This document shows, in pieces, positions 8,457 to 24,131 of a stretch of DNA of 64,000 nt; position 1 is the stretch's first letter; each line of letters opens with the position of its first letter. Origin of the DNA: Candidatus Scalindua japonica (GTDB taxonomy: Bacteria; Planctomycetota; Brocadiia; Brocadiales; Scalinduaceae); assembly GCF_002443295.1 (NCBI RefSeq), contig NZ_BAOS01000001.1:124001-188000 (forward strand), in the 5' to 3' direction. Made by a program: the position numbers and the translations under genes. The notes beneath the pieces were generated by a model, which was given only the letters and a program-made list of their open reading frames with translations, did not search any database and was not told the origin of the DNA.

Positions 8457-11400
8457 TTATGCATCAGACTTATTCCTCTTCGCCTGGATTGCTATTGTCT
8501 CTAGAAGCCTTCTTTGATTTGTTGATATCGTTGGTCCTTCAACATCAAGAGCGGCATAGGGGATATCGTTTTTGTTTGCTAATGGACGAACTATTGCATG
8601 AGCGTTCATGGCGGGTTGACAGTTAAAGCAGCCAAGGTTTATTAAAGCATCATATACTCCGGTTTTAATAGAGCAGATATATCTTCCTGTTGTAACCGGA
8701 GTTTCACTGAATGCGTTATAAGAAATATGTTTATTGCCCTCCTGTATAATATCAAGAAATGGTATATGCACATCAAACATGAGATTTGATGTTAACATTA
8801 TTTTACGAAGCCGTTTCATTTCTTTTTCAATGAAAGCCATTGTTATTCTGTTTTGTAATGCATTAAAAGCGTTTTTTCTATTTCCGTTAAATAGTGAAGT
8901 CAGAGCTCCTTTCGCTATTGATGTAAAACTGAACTGCTCCTTTAGATCGCTTACACCTCTCTGTAAGCTGAAGTTAAGGACCGGTTTCGAGAAGAGCCAG
9001 AGAATTCCCTCTGTAAAATCAACAACTTTTGGTATGACTCCCTGTTCCAGAAAAAATTCACTTACCGGGTAGTGAACAAATAATAAGTTGAGCCCACCGA
9101 TTATCAGTACTTTGGGCATTTCCTCCAACGAAATTTTACGCGGTATTTCAGCCATCTTTATTGCCCACTCTTTTAAGGCAGGGATAAAGTGCTTATTGCT
9201 TTTTATATATTCAACTAAACGATCTGTCTCTTTATCAAACACGCTTAGTGCTGACTCTTTATTTTGTGCGACACATATAAGTGCGTTCTTTGCTTCTTCA
9301 AGAAAATGTCCTAAAATAATTGCACGGATTATTTCTATTGAATGCATTCTCTTAAGACCAAGGTTCTTATTCTCGGGTAGCCATTGAGTAGAAAACATGA
9401 AGTTTTTCAGATTGAGCTTCTTGACAAAAACTTCGCCTATTGCAGGCCATGAACCGTACTGGCAGGGCCCCTCCATATTCAGATTGACACATAACGTTAT
9501 TTCATCCTCACGCCTGTTTTCATATAAGTCTTTCAAGACGAAACCGGTGATCGCGATAAAGGGGAAGCATTCACGACCTGAACACATCTTTTTACCATAC
9601 TGTATAATTTCAGCACTTGTTTTGTCATTGATTCTACAATTAACACCATACCTGTTAAAGATACCTTTCATCATAAGTTTTGAGTAATGGTTGAAATCGT
9701 AAGTAATAACATGTGTTATTCGAGGATCATTCAATTTAATCCGTTTATTATCACTATCAATAATGTGCTGATAATTCTCTGTAAAACGGGCCTGTTTAAA
9801 TTCTAAATCATTAATTGTGTCTGTGTTCTGTTCTCTTGATTTCAATCTTCTTTTCTTACGTCGTTGAGCATTGATAATATCAAAAAAAGCGCTTAATCGA
9901 GTTTCAAAACCAGCATAAGCAGTGTGTGAATCTATCTCTAAATAACAGAAGGTATGTCCCTGAAGCTCATCTCGAAAATAATGATACATACATGCGTCCG
10001 GGCCACATGAAAAGCAGGAAATAAAACATAAGTAAAAATCAGCATTATTTTTAGCATAAGCTATTGCATTGTCAATCTGTCTTGTATGATGCCATACATC
10101 TCTTTCAGGATATTCACCATCAAATTGTGGGACCATATCGGCGGGTACAACATGATAACCCATGCTGGCAATTTTGCGTGGAAGGGCAAAGTTAACTTCA
10201 GAAGAGCAGGTGACATAAGGTCTTCCCGCGAGGATAATTGTAGGTTTGTTTTTCAACTTTTCAAACTCTGCCTTGCTTCGCTTTTGATACTGCTTCATGT
10301 ACTCGTTATAGTGAGAAAGTGCTTTCTGCCCGGCGTCCTTTATAATATCTTTTTCCAAACCTAATAGAGGACTCAATTTTTCCAATTCAATAGATGTAAT
10401 TCTGTTATAATCATTTGAAAACCAGATACTGGGGGATAAAACCTTGTCATCTAGATCCGGAAAGGCTTTGCGTATAATATCAGGAATTGCGGATGTAGAT
10501 GGGCATGTATAGGAATAAGAATCCTTGCCCAGCTCAATCACTCGTGGCATAAGGATATAATCAACGTTGCGGTCAATAAGATCATAGACCGCTCCATGGT
10601 ATATCTCGCATGGATAACAGATAGGTGATCTGGTTTTCTTTTTACCTTCCTTTGAAGGGTTTGATAAGATTATGTTATACCCCAGTTCATTGATCAGTTT
10701 TGTAAAATAAGGAAAGAGATTATAAGCAGTGAGTGCCATGGGAAGGCCGATTGTACCACGTGCATTTTTTATGGTGTGCGGGCCGAACTCCTTAAACATC
10801 ATCTCATTCCAGACTGCAACCAGGTCACGACCTTCCTTAATTGTATTATCTTTATGACGCACTTTCTCGTATTTGGAACAGAGTCCCCCAAAGGGATATA
10901 TTTTTCCACCGGTCTCTATTCTCTTGATTTCACAATTGTTTTCACAGGACTTGCATCGGAAAGATTCTTTTTCGTTGATCTTGTTTTTTATTATATCCTC
11001 AAGTTTATAATGTTCTTCTTTTGCATCTCCATCTCTTAATAGATCTCTTGCCATCAGGGCACTTCCAACACTTCCCATGAGTTCCGGATGAGGTGGTACG
11101 ACCACCTTTTGCTGTACACGAGAGGCTATTGCCAATGCAACAGATCTGTTCAGGGCAACTCCTCCCATAAACATAAGGTTGTTTCCAATATGCCTGGGTC
11201 CGACAATTCGAGAGATATAATTGTCAGCTATTGAGTATACAAGGCCGGCAATAACATCTTCCTGGTCTGCTTCCTGCTGAAGAGCATTTCGTATATCAGT
11301 ATTGATAAAAGCGGCACATCTTTCACCAAATGATATGGGTTGGGTACTCTTACGGGCAACGTTACTGATATTCTCCATCTCAATACCCATATCTATAGAT

Positions 11401-12758
11401 GCTGATTCTTCAATAAAACTACCCGTACCGGCCGAACAGCCTTCGTTCATTGCATAATCAACCGGGTTTCCGTTTAAAAAGGAGATGAACTTCGAATCCT
11501 GTCCACCAATTTCAAATACGGTTTCTACATCAGGGAGCTCTTCGGATGCTGCTCTTGCATGGGCTAATATTTCGTTAAAACTGAAGCAATTGTCAAGATA
11601 AACAGATACGATTTCTCTTCCGGACCCTGTTACTGCTGTCTGAATAATTCTGATAGATTTATTACCGCGCTGTTTAATAAGTTCGAGAAGACAGTTTTTT
11701 GTCGCCTGAACGGGATTTCCAAGGGTCCTTAAATAGCAGCTTGCCGCGACAACACCATCGTCAATAGGTAACAATACTGCCTTCGTTGTTGTTGAGCCTG
11801 CATCTACTCCAAGGATGTACGATTCATTATCAATTATCGTTTGTTTATTACTTTCAGTCCGAACCCGGTAATCTAAAAATTGTTCTGCTTCACTAAGCGG
11901 TGTTATCTTTTCAAATTCAGTCATAGATTCTTTGAACCATTTTTCAAACGTCAGGCCGGTTGTATTTTCAGGAAGTTCTGACGCAAAAAGAGATGCTCCA
12001 AAAGCCTCTATATAGGGACTTTCCGGTAGTACAATTATATTTGAATTGACAAAAAGTCCGCGTAGTTTCTCAATAAATGGTTCATTCAATGCAACCTGTC
12101 CGCAAATTACGATCAAATCCGTAGACCACTGAGATAATTCTACCATTCGGTAAACTTTAGCGGCCAGATCGTGTATAAGGGTATGGGTTATATCTCCGAC
12201 ACTGCACTCTTTCTGATTCAGTTTATGCGTTACATCAGATTTACAATGAACAGAACATCGTGTTGCAATAGGTACACAATTACCTTTTTTACTCTCTTCA
12301 AGCCCCTCTGAAAGAGAGAGACCTATTCTTTTAAACTGCTGAACAATAAATTCACCGGTACCTGAAGCACATTTTGAACTTGAGAGTATGTCCTTTATTT
12401 TTCCATCCTTCATAGGATACGCATTAAACGTTTCCCCTCCAAGTGAAAGTACCATATCTGGATTGAGGTTATGAAACAACATGGATTTTTCAATACATTC
12501 TGTTTCTGAAAAATAGGGAAGGTTGGTAAGTGACCTGGATGCCTGTCCGGTTGCAGCTATTCTGGAATTATGTGAACATTTATGCCGATCCAGTATTCTT
12601 TGTATGGTTTCTCTGGGTTTTCCTTCATGTCTTTCTACGATAGAGATCGTTTTTCCATTATGAATTCTACGGACCCATTTTACTGATACAGTACCTATTT
12701 CCAGCCCTTCAAAATATGGTACTGATTCACCATTTCTCTTATCTTTTTTGTGGTACAT
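8457..12758 (-). CDS. BcrAD/HgdC-type acyl-CoA dehydratase activase fused to HgdB-like module
   Basis: A giant protein of 1433 residues. I place the start at the ATG at 12758, 9 bp after the UbiB-like stop; a GTG at 12816-12818 would overlap that gene by 52 bp. There are two tandem ASKHA ATPase domains of the BadF/BcrA/HgdC family. The first has GGETFNAYP and CASGTGEF. The second has GVDAGSTTTKAVL, GGQDSKFI, NEGCSAGTGSF and SFGERCAAF, whose cysteines ligate the [4Fe-4S] cluster in HgdC. Next come a Cys cluster (CKSCENNC, GLCSKYEK), a DUF2229-like part, and an HgdB-like part with CFISCFSCGPDACMYH. Activases use ATP to drive a low-potential electron into a dehydratase or reductase. Substrate unknown; it is last in an operon after UbiB and SRPBCC genes. 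Confidence 0.92.
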   Translation of the reverse strand: MYHKKDKRNGESVPYFEGLEIGTVSVKWVRRIHNGKTISIVERHEGKPRETIQRILDRHKCSHNSRIAATGQASRSLTNLPYFSETECIEKSMLFHNLNPDMVLSLGGETFNAYPMKDGKIKDILSSSKCASGTGEFIVQQFKRIGLSLSEGLEESKKGNCVPIATRCSVHCKSDVTHKLNQKECSVGDITHTLIHDLAAKVYRMVELSQWSTDLIVICGQVALNEPFIEKLRGLFVNSNIIVLPESPYIEAFGASLFASELPENTTGLTFEKWFKESMTEFEKITPLSEAEQFLDYRVRTESNKQTIIDNESYILGVDAGSTTTKAVLLPIDDGVVAASCYLRTLGNPVQATKNCLLELIKQRGNKSIRIIQTAVTGSGREIVSVYLDNCFSFNEILAHARAASEELPDVETVFEIGGQDSKFISFLNGNPVDYAMNEGCSAGTGSFIEESASIDMGIEMENISNVARKSTQPISFGERCAAFINTDIRNALQQEADQEDVIAGLVYSIADNYISRIVGPRHIGNNLMFMGGVALNRSVALAIASRVQQKVVVPPHPELMGSVGSALMARDLLRDGDAKEEHYKLEDIIKNKINEKESFRCKSCENNCEIKRIETGGKIYPFGGLCSKYEKVRHKDNTIKEGRDLVAVWNEMMFKEFGPHTIKNARGTIGLPMALTAYNLFPYFTKLINELGYNIILSNPSKEGKKKTRSPICYPCEIYHGAVYDLIDRNVDYILMPRVIELGKDSYSYTCPSTSAIPDIIRKAFPDLDDKVLSPSIWFSNDYNRITSIELEKLSPLLGLEKDIIKDAGQKALSHYNEYMKQYQKRSKAEFEKLKNKPTIILAGRPYVTCSSEVNFALPRKIASMGYHVVPADMVPQFDGEYPERDVWHHTRQIDNAIAYAKNNADFYLCFISCFSCGPDACMYHYFRDELQGHTFCYLEIDSHTAYAGFETRLSAFFDIINAQRRKKRRLKSREQNTDTINDLEFKQARFTENYQHIIDSDNKRIKLNDPRITHVITYDFNHYSKLMMKGIFNRYGVNCRINDKTSAEIIQYGKKMCSGRECFPFIAITGFVLKDLYENRREDEITLCVNLNMEGPCQYGSWPAIGEVFVKKLNLKNFMFSTQWLPENKNLGLKRMHSIEIIRAIILGHFLEEAKNALICVAQNKESALSVFDKETDRLVEYIKSNKHFIPALKEWAIKMAEIPRKISLEEMPKVLIIGGLNLLFVHYPVSEFFLEQGVIPKVVDFTEGILWLFSKPVLNFSLQRGVSDLKEQFSFTSIAKGALTSLFNGNRKNAFNALQNRITMAFIEKEMKRLRKIMLTSNLMFDVHIPFLDIIQEGNKHISYNAFSETPVTTGRYICSIKTGVYDALINLGCFNCQPAMNAHAIVRPLANKNDIPYAALDVEGPTISTNQRRLLETIAIQAKRNKSDA

Positions 12759-19976: not shown

Positions 19977-20909
19977 CTATTGTTGTTGTTGACTCTTATT
20001 TTTCAGATGGTCTTTTATCTTTTCAATCTCTTTTAACGTTATCAACTTTCTGTGTTCCATGGTATCGTACATAGAGTCGGCTATCTCTGACCACTCTTCA
20101 GGGGTATAGTCGTAGTCGTCAGTGTCAGGTAGTGGATGGCAGGCAGTGCATATAAATCTGTAAAGGTAATGACCGAACAGGTACTCATCTTTATTTTTTA
20201 GCTCCTCTTTGGTTAATTCCTTTTTCAGATGGTCTTTTATCTTTTCAATCTCTTTTAACGTTATCAACTTTCTGTGTTCCATAGTATCATACATAGATTC
20301 GGCTATCTCTGACCACTCTTCAGGGGTATAGTCGTAGTCATCTGTGTCCGGCAGCGGGTGGCAGGTAGTACATATAAACCTGTAAAGGTACTGACCGAAC
20401 AGGTCCTCTTCTTCCTTATATAACTCCTCTTTCACCAGCATCTCCTTTGCCAGTTTCTCCTTTGCCAGTTTCTCCTTTGCCAGCTTCTCTTTCGCCAGCT
20501 TCTCCTTCGCCAGCATCTCCTTTGCCAGCATCTCCTTTGCCAGTTTCTCCTTTGCCAGTTTCTCCTTTGCCAGTTTCTCTTTCGTCAGCTTCTCCTTTGC
20601 CAGTTTCTCCTTTGCCAGCTTCTCTTTCGCCAGCTTCTCTTTCGCCAGCTTCTCCTTCGCCAGTTTCTCTTTCGTCAGCTTCTCCTTCGCCAGTTTCTCT
20701 TTCGTCAGCTTCTCCTTCGCCAACTTCTCCTTCGCCAGTTTCTCCTTCGCTAACGTCTCTTTCTCCAACTCTTCTTTTGCTAACTTCTCATTCACCAACT
20801 CCTCCTTTTGGATATCCTTTGTTACCGTTGTTGTACAGCCTGAAATAATCTGCTGAGTAAGAAGCAAAAAAACTATCAAAATGGTATAAACATTAGAACT
20901 TTTTTTCAT
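19977..20909 (-). CDS. Repeat-stalk lipoprotein with two CxxCH heme-binding domains
   Basis: A 310-residue protein. A lipoprotein signal peptide ends in ISGC with Cys25 as lipidation site. Residues 35-164 are 26 tandem pentapeptides (consensus KEKLA, variants KEKLT, KEMLA), which should form one long charged helix or coiled coil. Two near-identical 60-residue domains follow (170-229 and 244-303), each starting [19 protein letters not shown]: CTTCH at 180-184 and CTACH at 254-258 are c-type heme attachment motifs. It would be a membrane-tethered diheme electron carrier on a stalk in the periplasm, or a relay at the outer membrane. The heme axial ligand is not certain; Met206/Met280 and Met210/Met284 are candidates. 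Confidence 0.85.
20001..20180 (-). repeat. Duplicated 180-bp heme-domain segment, copy 2
   Basis: This encodes residues 244-303 of the lipoprotein and is nearly identical at DNA level to 20223-20402, so the duplication is recent or kept uniform by gene conversion. Confidence 0.9.
20223..20402 (-). repeat. Duplicated 180-bp heme-domain segment, copy 1
   Basis: This encodes residues 170-229 of the lipoprotein. It differs from the second copy by a handful of bases, such as CTTCH versus CTACH codons. Confidence 0.9.
20418..20807 (-). repeat. 15-bp tandem repeat array, 26 units
   Basis: The array encodes the KEKLA-type pentapeptides. On the plus strand the unit is TTCTCCTTTGCCAGC with third-base and a few coding variants. 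The multiple-of-three unit means that gain or loss of copies changes stalk length without a frameshift. The complementary strand also stays open across the array, which is an artefact of the repeat. Confidence 0.95.
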
Positions 20910-21265
20910 ATTTGAATCTCCTTTTTATAATCAATAATAATACCTGTTTTGTATATAACAAAAGAAATGGGGGGAATGTATGCATTTAACATACTTAAGA
21001 AGGTAATGTAGTGTTCGCTTATAAGTATGTCTTCTCTATCAATGAAGTCAATACGTAGTCACTGTAACAATAATTGTCTGTAGGCCATGGTACTCCACCA
21101 AATCTATAACTTATGATATTTTTTGAGAGACAGATATTCTCATTTGCCAGTGGATAAATTTCATTGTTTAACAGTGTATGTCCTGACTCTTTTCCGTTAC
21201 TATAAATTTATCTAATATGTCAGTAATCTTTTAACTCAGTTGTGGTCTGAAAAAGTTCTTGATAT
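20910..21265. other. 356-bp stretch with a possible coding fragment
   Basis: No complete gene is seen. On the minus strand about 60 codons without a start (roughly 21205 down to 21019) read protein-like sequence including SYRFGGVPWPTDNYCYSDYV before a stop. I do not recognise it. It may be the 3' end of a decayed gene. The remainder is the promoter region of the lipoprotein gene. Confidence 0.3.
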
Positions 21266-22345: not shown

Positions 22346-22798
22346 ATGGATATATATAAATACGCAATGCAAATGGAGTTAGATGGTAAACATTTTTACC
22401 ATGATTTGTCTAAGAAAACAAATAATACGGGTATTAAGAGTATACTGACTATGATGGCCGAATCTGAGGCCAAACACTATAATGTAATCTTGAGTATGCA
22501 AAAAAATGATAAAACACAATATTCGGCGGATACTGAAGTATTAACAAAGGTAAAAAATATTTTCATGACAATGAAAGAAGAAAAGAAAATTGATATTGAT
22601 AATTCACAAGTAGAAATTTATAAAAAGGCTTTGGACGTTGAGATAAATAGCGAAAAATTTTATCAGGAAAGGGCAGACGCTGAGAAAGACACTTATAGAA
22701 AGGAACTATTTTTAACGTTAGCAAACGAAGAAAAAAATCATTGTGTTATACTGAAAAACTTAGTTAATCTTACGGAAGCACCGGATAATTTGTGGTAA
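22346..22798 (+). CDS. Ferritin-like/rubrerythrin-domain protein
   Basis: A 150-residue four-helix protein of the rubrerythrin-like ferritin superfamily. The di-iron ligand pattern is visible in both halves: MQMELDGKHFYHDL then MMAESEAKHYNVI, and ALDVEINSEKFYQER then LANEEKNHCVIL. It has no rubredoxin-type CxxC domain. Such proteins usually reduce peroxide or store iron. The ribosome site AGAGGAG precedes the ATG. It lies 115 bp upstream of the flavodiiron gene, so an oxygen or NO defence role is likely; the electron donor could be the rubredoxin encoded at 24142. Confidence 0.88.
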   Translation: MDIYKYAMQMELDGKHFYHDLSKKTNNTGIKSILTMMAESEAKHYNVILSMQKNDKTQYSADTEVLTKVKNIFMTMKEEKKIDIDNSQVEIYKKALDVEINSEKFYQERADAEKDTYRKELFLTLANEEKNHCVILKNLVNLTEAPDNLW

Positions 22799-22913
22799 AT
22801 CGATAAAAAATATTACTTTGATTGCCAGATACAAAGTTATTAAATAGTGGTATCGATCCATTTGAAGAACCGAGGCAGATTATGATTATAAAAACTGAAA
22901 ACAGGAATTTGAA

Positions 22914-24131
22914 ATGTCAAAAAATCTGAATGCAATACAAATAGCAGATAAAGTATATTGGGTAGGCGCAATTGACTGGGGCGTTAGAAACATCCACGGC
23001 TACACTACTGACAGGGGAACAACATATAATGCATATCTGGTTATGGACGACAAGATAACTCTCTTTGACACAGTAAAGAAAGAGTTTGAGGATGAATTTC
23101 TATCAAGAATTGCATCAATAGTGAATCCGGAAAAAATAGACTATATCATATCTAATCACTCAGAACCTGATCACAGTGAAGTGCTTCCGGAGATCATAAA
23201 AGCGGTAAAACCGGAAAAGGTATTTGCATCAGTAATGGGCAAAAAGGCCTTAAACGCCATTTACCATGACCTCAACATGGAAATAACCGCAGTAAAGGAT
23301 GGTGAAGAGTTGGGCCTTGGTAGCAAAACGGTGAAATTCATGGAAACAAGAATGCTCCACTGGCCAGACAGCATGTTCAGCTACCTTGTCGAAGACAAAG
23401 TATTACTTACACAAGATGCATTTGGAATGCACCTTGCCTCATCTGAAAGATTCGGGGAAGAGCTCCCGTGGGGAGTTCTGAAAACACATGTATCAGGATA
23501 CTATGCAAATATTATCACGCCATATTCAAGTCATGTAGCAAAACTATTTGAAAAAATAGATACATCTGGACTAGAGGTAAGTATAGTCGCACCAGACCAT
23601 GGGCCAGTCTGGAGAAATATGGACAATTTCAGAAAAGTACTCTCTCTCTACAAGAAGTGGTCTGCAAGGAAACTTGATGAGAAAATAGTAATCGTATACG
23701 ATACTATGTGGGGAAGCACAGAGAAAATGGCAAACCATATTGAAGACGGGGCCAGGTCTTCAGATGTCTCTGTTGAAATGATGCCGCTTTACTCCTTTGA
23801 AAGGAGCATGATAGCATTGGAAATGCTTGATGCGTCTGCTGTTATTGTAGGAGCACCGACTTTGAACAACAACATCTTTCCATCGCTGGCAGATGTCCTG
23901 ACATATATCAAGGGGCTTAAGTTTAAAACACCATACGGAGCAGTTTTTGGCTCTTATGGTTGGAGCGGTGAAGGGAACAATCTTCTCAGGGAGTATCTGG
24001 TCTCCATTGGCGTAGAAATAGTCGATGAGATAAAATCAAAATACGTTCCAGATGATAAAGTAAAAGAAGAATGCTTTTTACTTGGGCAGGCAGTCGCTAA
24101 TAAAGTAAAAGAATTTATTAAAAACCAATAG
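22914..24131 (+). CDS. fprA: Flavodiiron protein (A-type flavoprotein, FprA-like)
   Basis: A 405-residue protein. The N-terminal metallo-beta-lactamase-like di-iron domain (1-250) has [10 protein letters not shown] (the HxExDH ligand motif), LTQDAFGMH and VAPDHGPVW. The C-terminal flavodoxin domain (about 257-400) has the FMN phosphate loop [11 protein letters not shown] and a GSYGWSGEG loop. These enzymes reduce oxygen to water or NO to nitrous oxide using electrons from rubredoxin. A rubredoxin gene follows immediately, with its ribosome site overlapping this stop. Substrate preference cannot be told from sequence. NO scavenging would matter in a nitrogen-cycling anaerobe. Confidence 0.96.

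Follow-up and report, generated by a model that had tools for sequence, protein, structure and literature searches.

The window, the 64,000-nucleotide stretch of DNA that was analysed, carries a gene whose product is probably a lipid-tethered diheme class I mini-cytochrome c, an electron carrier mounted on a single-alpha-helix spacer. The gene for this stalked diheme c-type cytochrome lipoprotein (310 amino acids) lies on the minus strand at 19977..20909 (the same place as G000:C1:143980-144909), and the original prediction, which was made from the letters of the DNA, had both its coordinates and its strand right. The open reading frame starts with ATG at 20909 and stops at 19977-19979, and the start is preceded by a well-matched Shine-Dalgarno sequence (AAAAAGGAGATTCAAAT-ATG; AAGGAG at 20918..20923, minus strand). 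A plus-strand open reading frame (20447-20848) was rejected as a gene, being the mirror image of the repeat within the lipoprotein gene. The architecture of the protein, its family, the change of its length in whole units and its restriction to the Scalindua family are established at the level of sequence.

The window belongs to a 4.81-Mb draft genome of 47 contigs which encodes hydrazine synthase alpha, and the host is therefore an anammox bacterium (Scalindua family). Anammox bacteria are a group rich in c-type cytochromes (PMC4222556). A plasmid search matched nothing. Near the lipoprotein gene, a rubrerythrin-like protein is encoded beside a flavodiiron-type protein with ODP and flavodoxin domains (22346-24131), a possible oxygen- or NO-detoxification pair. 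Farther off are genes for an ammonium transporter (PF00909; 6147-7595) and a 1433-amino-acid BadF/BcrAD-type CoA-enzyme activase (PF01869 and DUF2229; 8460-12758). A long series of apparent glycosyltransferase, polysaccharide-export-like and radical-SAM-like genes at 28374-62800, judged from the starts of their translations only, is probably an extracellular polysaccharide cluster.

The protein begins with a signal peptide (residues 1-24; 20838..20909, minus strand) which is conserved in the lipidated relatives and runs into the lipobox I-S-G-C (residues 22-25; 20835..20846, minus strand). The lipobox is conserved and matches the pattern [LVI][ASTVI][GAS]C behind a hydrophobic signal. The protein had been predicted to be a lipoprotein, and this reading holds, the signal being identical or nearly so throughout the family. 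The lipid-acceptor cysteine, Cys25, is kept in 18 family members, and the combination of signal and lipobox with a mini-cytochrome domain is common to 17 relatives. We infer that Cys25 is lipidated and anchors the N-terminus. The cysteine has been lost in a pair of paralogues, L004 (1498-1830; Ser in ISGS) and L042 (540-938; Tyr in ISGY), which otherwise have the family architecture and may be soluble or differently anchored heme proteins; the spacing from the cysteine position to the heme is 33 residues in this pair, which breaks the multiple-of-five rule described below.

The C-terminal part of the protein consists of two heme domains, at residues 170-229 (20223..20402, minus strand) and 244-303 (20001..20180, minus strand), with a predicted helical linker between them (residues 230-243; 20181..20222, minus strand). 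They had been described as two nearly identical 60-residue CxxCH domains, and 57 of the 60 residues indeed match, with 10 synonymous codon differences; TRF reported the duplication as a 222-bp unit in two copies (90%). The heme c attachment motifs are CTTCH (residues 180-184; 20358..20372, minus strand), with Met206 as the likely axial ligand, and CTACH (residues 254-258; 20136..20150, minus strand), with Met280 as the likely axial ligand. The CxxCH motif is invariant in all relatives, as are C180, C183, H184 and W199. PF13442 (Cytochrome_CBB3) matched 14 of the 19 proteins in the family alignment at E<=0.1 (best 1.2e-8), which supports the predicted heme-c type; the match in the window protein, at residues 172-227, scored 23.8 bits against a cut-off of 27.

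All 21 domains compared contain CxxCH, an invariant Trp and then either Met at Trp+7 or, where this Met is missing, His at Trp+8. The Met is present in 15 of the 21 domains, including both of those described here, and the other six have Thr, Arg or Leu followed by His. The Met or His is plausibly the sixth heme ligand in all 21 domains. This alternation of the probable ligand among close relatives may be a natural redox-potential series. The model of the heme domain has three helices at low confidence (pLDDT 65) and gave no PDB match by Foldseek or VIA; structure searches with both low-confidence models were uninformative. A PDB profile search with the heme domain returned weak matches only, many of them cytochromes c, and none covered the whole domain at a convincing score. 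The class I mini-cytochrome c type is the best reading of the two domains, and both are expected to carry covalently bound heme.

Between the anchor and the heme domains lies the stalk (residues 35-164; 20418..20807, minus strand), which is evident in the sequence, in the TRF output and as a model helix (residues 34-183). It comprises 26 tandem pentads of the form (K/N)-E-x-L-x encoded by a 15-bp unit, a copy number that may be wrong given that the array sits in a draft assembly. The original prediction of 26 tandem KEKLA pentapeptides was right for the number and general form of the pentads, but only 15 of the 26 are exactly KEKLA; three are KEKLT, and the remaining types include KEMLV and KEELY. 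TRF placed the 15-bp array at 20427-20807 (25.4 copies, 83% matches, 0% indels). Chance composition does not explain the array: its lag-15 identity was 0.82, whereas 2000 codon shuffles gave 0.45 +/- 0.02 and never more than 0.54. The DNA repeat is imperfect, with adjoining 15-mers identical in only 2 of 26 cases. It contains an exact 50-bp repeat (20455..20504 and 20590..20639, minus strand) whose copies lie 135 bp, or nine units, apart, and this is the trace of a multi-unit duplication.

Members of the cytochrome lipoprotein family were found in 14 of the 17 genomes of the Scalindua family (in G007 by a contig-end fragment only; G003, G005 and G006 have no member), and a profile search (E 1e-8) found none in 293 other genomes sampled across the planctomycete phylum. 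The heme-domain family, which the original prediction proposed to look for elsewhere, is thus specific to this lineage; outside the Scalindua family, the profile picked up a distant tri-heme protein and a few weak single matches in the order, and nothing else. The tri-heme CxxCH protein, with related domains (L005:1356-2184, L029, L031-L035), occurs in many anammox genomes across the order and may share an origin with the lipoprotein family. Most relatives are proteins of 103-125 amino acids with one heme and the same N-terminus, and the window protein is the longest member. At the N-terminus it most closely resembles the five-pentad group L013/L015 (88% over 34 residues).

The stalked diheme form was found in two of the 17 genomes, that of the host and that of Ca. 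Scalindua sp. SI037_bin72 (L036:5659-6492; L036 is the same as L012). Both proteins keep the lipobox and both heme domains. The stalk of the orthologue has 18 pentads, mostly KEELV and KEELA, and a net charge of about -15, vs +11 for the stalk in the window. Since the sign of the charge flips while the helix-forming pattern and its position are kept, a spacer fits better than a charge-specific binding element. The gene neighbourhoods of the two stalked genes are not conserved, and therefore no partner is indicated. A gene for an autotransporter-like protein of 1590 amino acids, highly repetitive and PEP-CTERM-like at its end (L036:7161-11933), adjoins the orthologue and not the window gene. 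In three genomes, short members have a gene for an Sm_multidrug_ex (PF06695) membrane protein within a few kb (L044:6632-7336, L046:10201-10995, L009:8347-9069); these proteins are 74-82% identical and may be neighbours or partners of the family. In two genomes, a short member is flanked by genes for a methyltransferase (PF02636) and for a calcineurin-like phosphoesterase (PF00149) (L048:7285-9885, L047:2483-10927; 78-81% identical).

In 17 of the 18 lipidated members, the lipobox Cys lies 25, 30, 35, 45, 115 or 155 residues from the first heme Cys; the exception is L038, with 36 residues. Being related, the 17 members do not represent as many independent events, although six different lengths fit the rule. 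Because these distances are multiples of five, the spacer appears to evolve in whole 15-bp steps. The distance between the two hemes likewise differs by two pentads (74 residues here, 84 in the orthologue), and the pentad register is intact, with no odd indel, over the 26 units here and the 18 units of the orthologue. Each added pentad rotates a helix by about 140 degrees, and for this reason the most likely basis of the rule is the way in which the DNA changes, by slippage or unequal crossing-over of the 15-bp units, rather than a constraint on heme orientation. The predicted in-frame change in copy number is thus seen between species, in spacers of 25-155 residues and in the 26 vs 18 pentads of the long forms, and the repeat number is not fixed across distant strains. 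Rather than a one-off, the window protein is the far extreme of a spacer quantised in pentads, within a cytochrome family specific to its lineage.

AlphaFold gave a single continuous helix for residues 34-183 with pLDDT up to 87 in a model of mean pLDDT 62.6 and pTM 0.35, with the caveat that the program tends toward helices for charged repeats. Over 135 residues, opposite charges along the stalk form 25 E->K(i+4) pairs and 21 K->E(i+4) pairs; this i/i+4 salt-bridge spacing, together with the model, supports the helical stalk of the original prediction. There is no hydrophobic stripe: the Leu/Ile/Val/Met moment was at most 0.08 here and at most 0.17 in the orthologue (94-108 degrees per residue). 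A coiled-coil stalk was rejected for lack of such a stripe at every angle tested. The stalk has the features of single alpha-helices, namely richness in E and K, opposite charges at i+3/i+4 and no hydrophobic seam (PMC5347031), and it is probably a rigid, non-pairing single-helix spacer. At 0.15 nm per residue, its 130 residues would span about 20 nm, and the 90 residues of the orthologue about 13.5 nm. For comparison, one study of E. coli measured, under the conditions it used, 30-32 nm between the inner and outer membranes (PMC8824477). A right-handed beta helix of the pentapeptide-repeat type was also rejected: Glu, not a small residue, stands two before Leu, contrary to the A(D/N)LxX pattern, and neither the window protein nor the family matched the Pfam pentapeptide entries. 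Matches to LSGANL-type proteins in the search for relatives were low-complexity matches, and Pfam matches to eIF3, histone HC2 and His-Me were below the cut-offs and driven by low complexity.

In a tree of the 21 heme domains, the two domains of the window protein cluster together (97/93), neither of them pairing with the domain at the equivalent position in the orthologue; the four domains of both stalked proteins form one clade (100/99). The pairing within the protein indicates that the duplication happened twice or that the copies convert each other.

In the mechanism that we favour, the signal peptide would carry the chain over a membrane, where lipidated Cys25 would anchor the N-terminus. 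About 130 residues of KExLx pentads would then form a helix of about 20 nm continuing into the first helix of heme domain 1. The helix would keep the diheme end off the membrane, and the hemes at its far end could pass electrons among partners that the tether can reach. Electron transfer and the direction of evolution are what we infer from the sequences. The ancestor of the protein would have been an ordinary lipoprotein of the Scalindua family, short and with a single heme, which was changed (i) by amplification of a 15-bp pentad unit already present in the short spacer and (ii) by duplication of its heme domain in tandem; conversion within the gene or repeated duplication would since have kept the copies alike. 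The periplasm, which the protein was originally suggested to bridge, is one of two or more compartments where it could be placed. In anammox bacteria, current thinking puts the maturation of c-type cytochromes at the anammoxosome, and most of their activity inside it. With the maturation step modelled at the membrane of this organelle (PMC4222556), the protein may face the organelle's lumen rather than the periplasm.

The main rival to the view that length matters is that the stalk is functionally neutral: in a single lineage, slippage or unequal crossing-over would have multiplied the 15-bp repeats, which would be tolerated because they are in frame and soluble, the exact length doing nothing. 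We consider this improbable, yet it deserves the most weight among the alternatives. The long form is confined to the two genomes, its two versions differ in both unit sequence and copy number, and the internal 50-bp repeat is what ordinary multi-unit duplication leaves behind. A turn of about 140 degrees per step does not preserve helical phase, and the steps thus look mutational in origin. On the other hand, both long forms keep the helix-forming pentad pattern despite diverged unit sequences, hold the register without an odd indel, and conserve the lipobox and both heme domains as well. A stronger claim about length, that the array is a step-adjustable molecular ruler, seems doubtful to us, more so than neutrality. 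By this account, selection would act on length: each 15-bp unit gained or lost would change the reach of the carrier by 0.75 nm, and Scalindua lineages, and perhaps populations, would in this way set that reach within a range of about 4 nm to more than 20 nm.

The stalk might instead be an element that attaches or strengthens the envelope by binding peptidoglycan, polysaccharide or membrane, with the hemes secondary, but we regard this as very unlikely. A charged helix of about 20 nm with a lipid end recalls TolA domain II. It likewise recalls Lpp (PMC8824477), and the KEKLA stalk is net positive; however, the orthologous stalk is net negative, the window protein has neither a C-terminal Lys anchor nor a peptidoglycan-binding domain, and the core of the family is the heme domain, not the helix. 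Least probable of all is that the heme domains are tethered heme sensors or receptors for gases such as NO: although the sixth-ligand position varies among the 21 domains (15 have Met; six have Thr, Arg or Leu then His), Met at Trp+7, a usual ligand for electron transfer, is present in both domains here and in the orthologue, and the protein has no attached signalling domain.

Taken as a tethered electron carrier, the protein bears on a wider question. Membrane-tethered cytochromes are common, but a spacer made of one charged helix and lengthened in fixed units would give a clean natural series of tether lengths; for the relation between tether length and electron transfer, the short relatives provide the lower lengths. 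The family also offers a marker confined to marine anammox bacteria, a group in which little is known of the electron-transfer chain, and the stalk is a candidate bacterial case of a single-alpha-helix spacer.

Cytochromes on repeat linkers are already known (PgcA, Neisseria c5/CcoP), and what is new here is that the spacer lengths almost always fall in five-residue steps. The closest systems are the short lipoproteins of the Scalindua family (L013, L015, L016, L002), which share the signal peptide, the lipobox, the mini-cytochrome domain and a pentad-phased spacer; these proteins, however, have 103-125 amino acids, one heme and about 1-5 pentads, against 26 pentads and a duplicated domain in the window protein. 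PgcA, an extracellular cytochrome of Geobacter sulfurreducens, is also a predicted lipoprotein combining CxxCH domains with tandem repeats; 29 PTx units separate its CxxCH domains, and repeat type and heme number vary between species (PMC5732950). Its Pro/Thr-rich repeats stand before and between the hemes, whereas the repeats here are charged, probably helical and placed between anchor and hemes. Membership in the PgcA type was rejected, since the repeats are KExLx N-terminal to the hemes and not PTx/PAx between heme motifs. Neisseria cytochrome c5 and tri-heme CcoP similarly have membrane-anchored heme c domains, low-complexity linkers and modular evolution of heme number, but their linkers are rich in Ala, Ser and Pro and do not resemble the stalk, and they are anchored in other ways (PMC2924362). 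Braun lipoprotein Lpp is a lipid-anchored helix whose length sets distance, a 21-residue extension widening the periplasm; unlike the window protein, it is a heptad coiled coil bound to peptidoglycan and has no heme (PMC8824477). The stalk itself is most like the ER/K single-alpha-helix spacers, which lie between domains, are rich in E and K with opposite charges at i+3/i+4, and lack a hydrophobic seam (PMC5347031, PMC4183817). The well-studied examples are eukaryotic proteins and designed peptides, whereas the helix predicted here contains Leu in each of its pentads and is joined to a bacterial lipid anchor.
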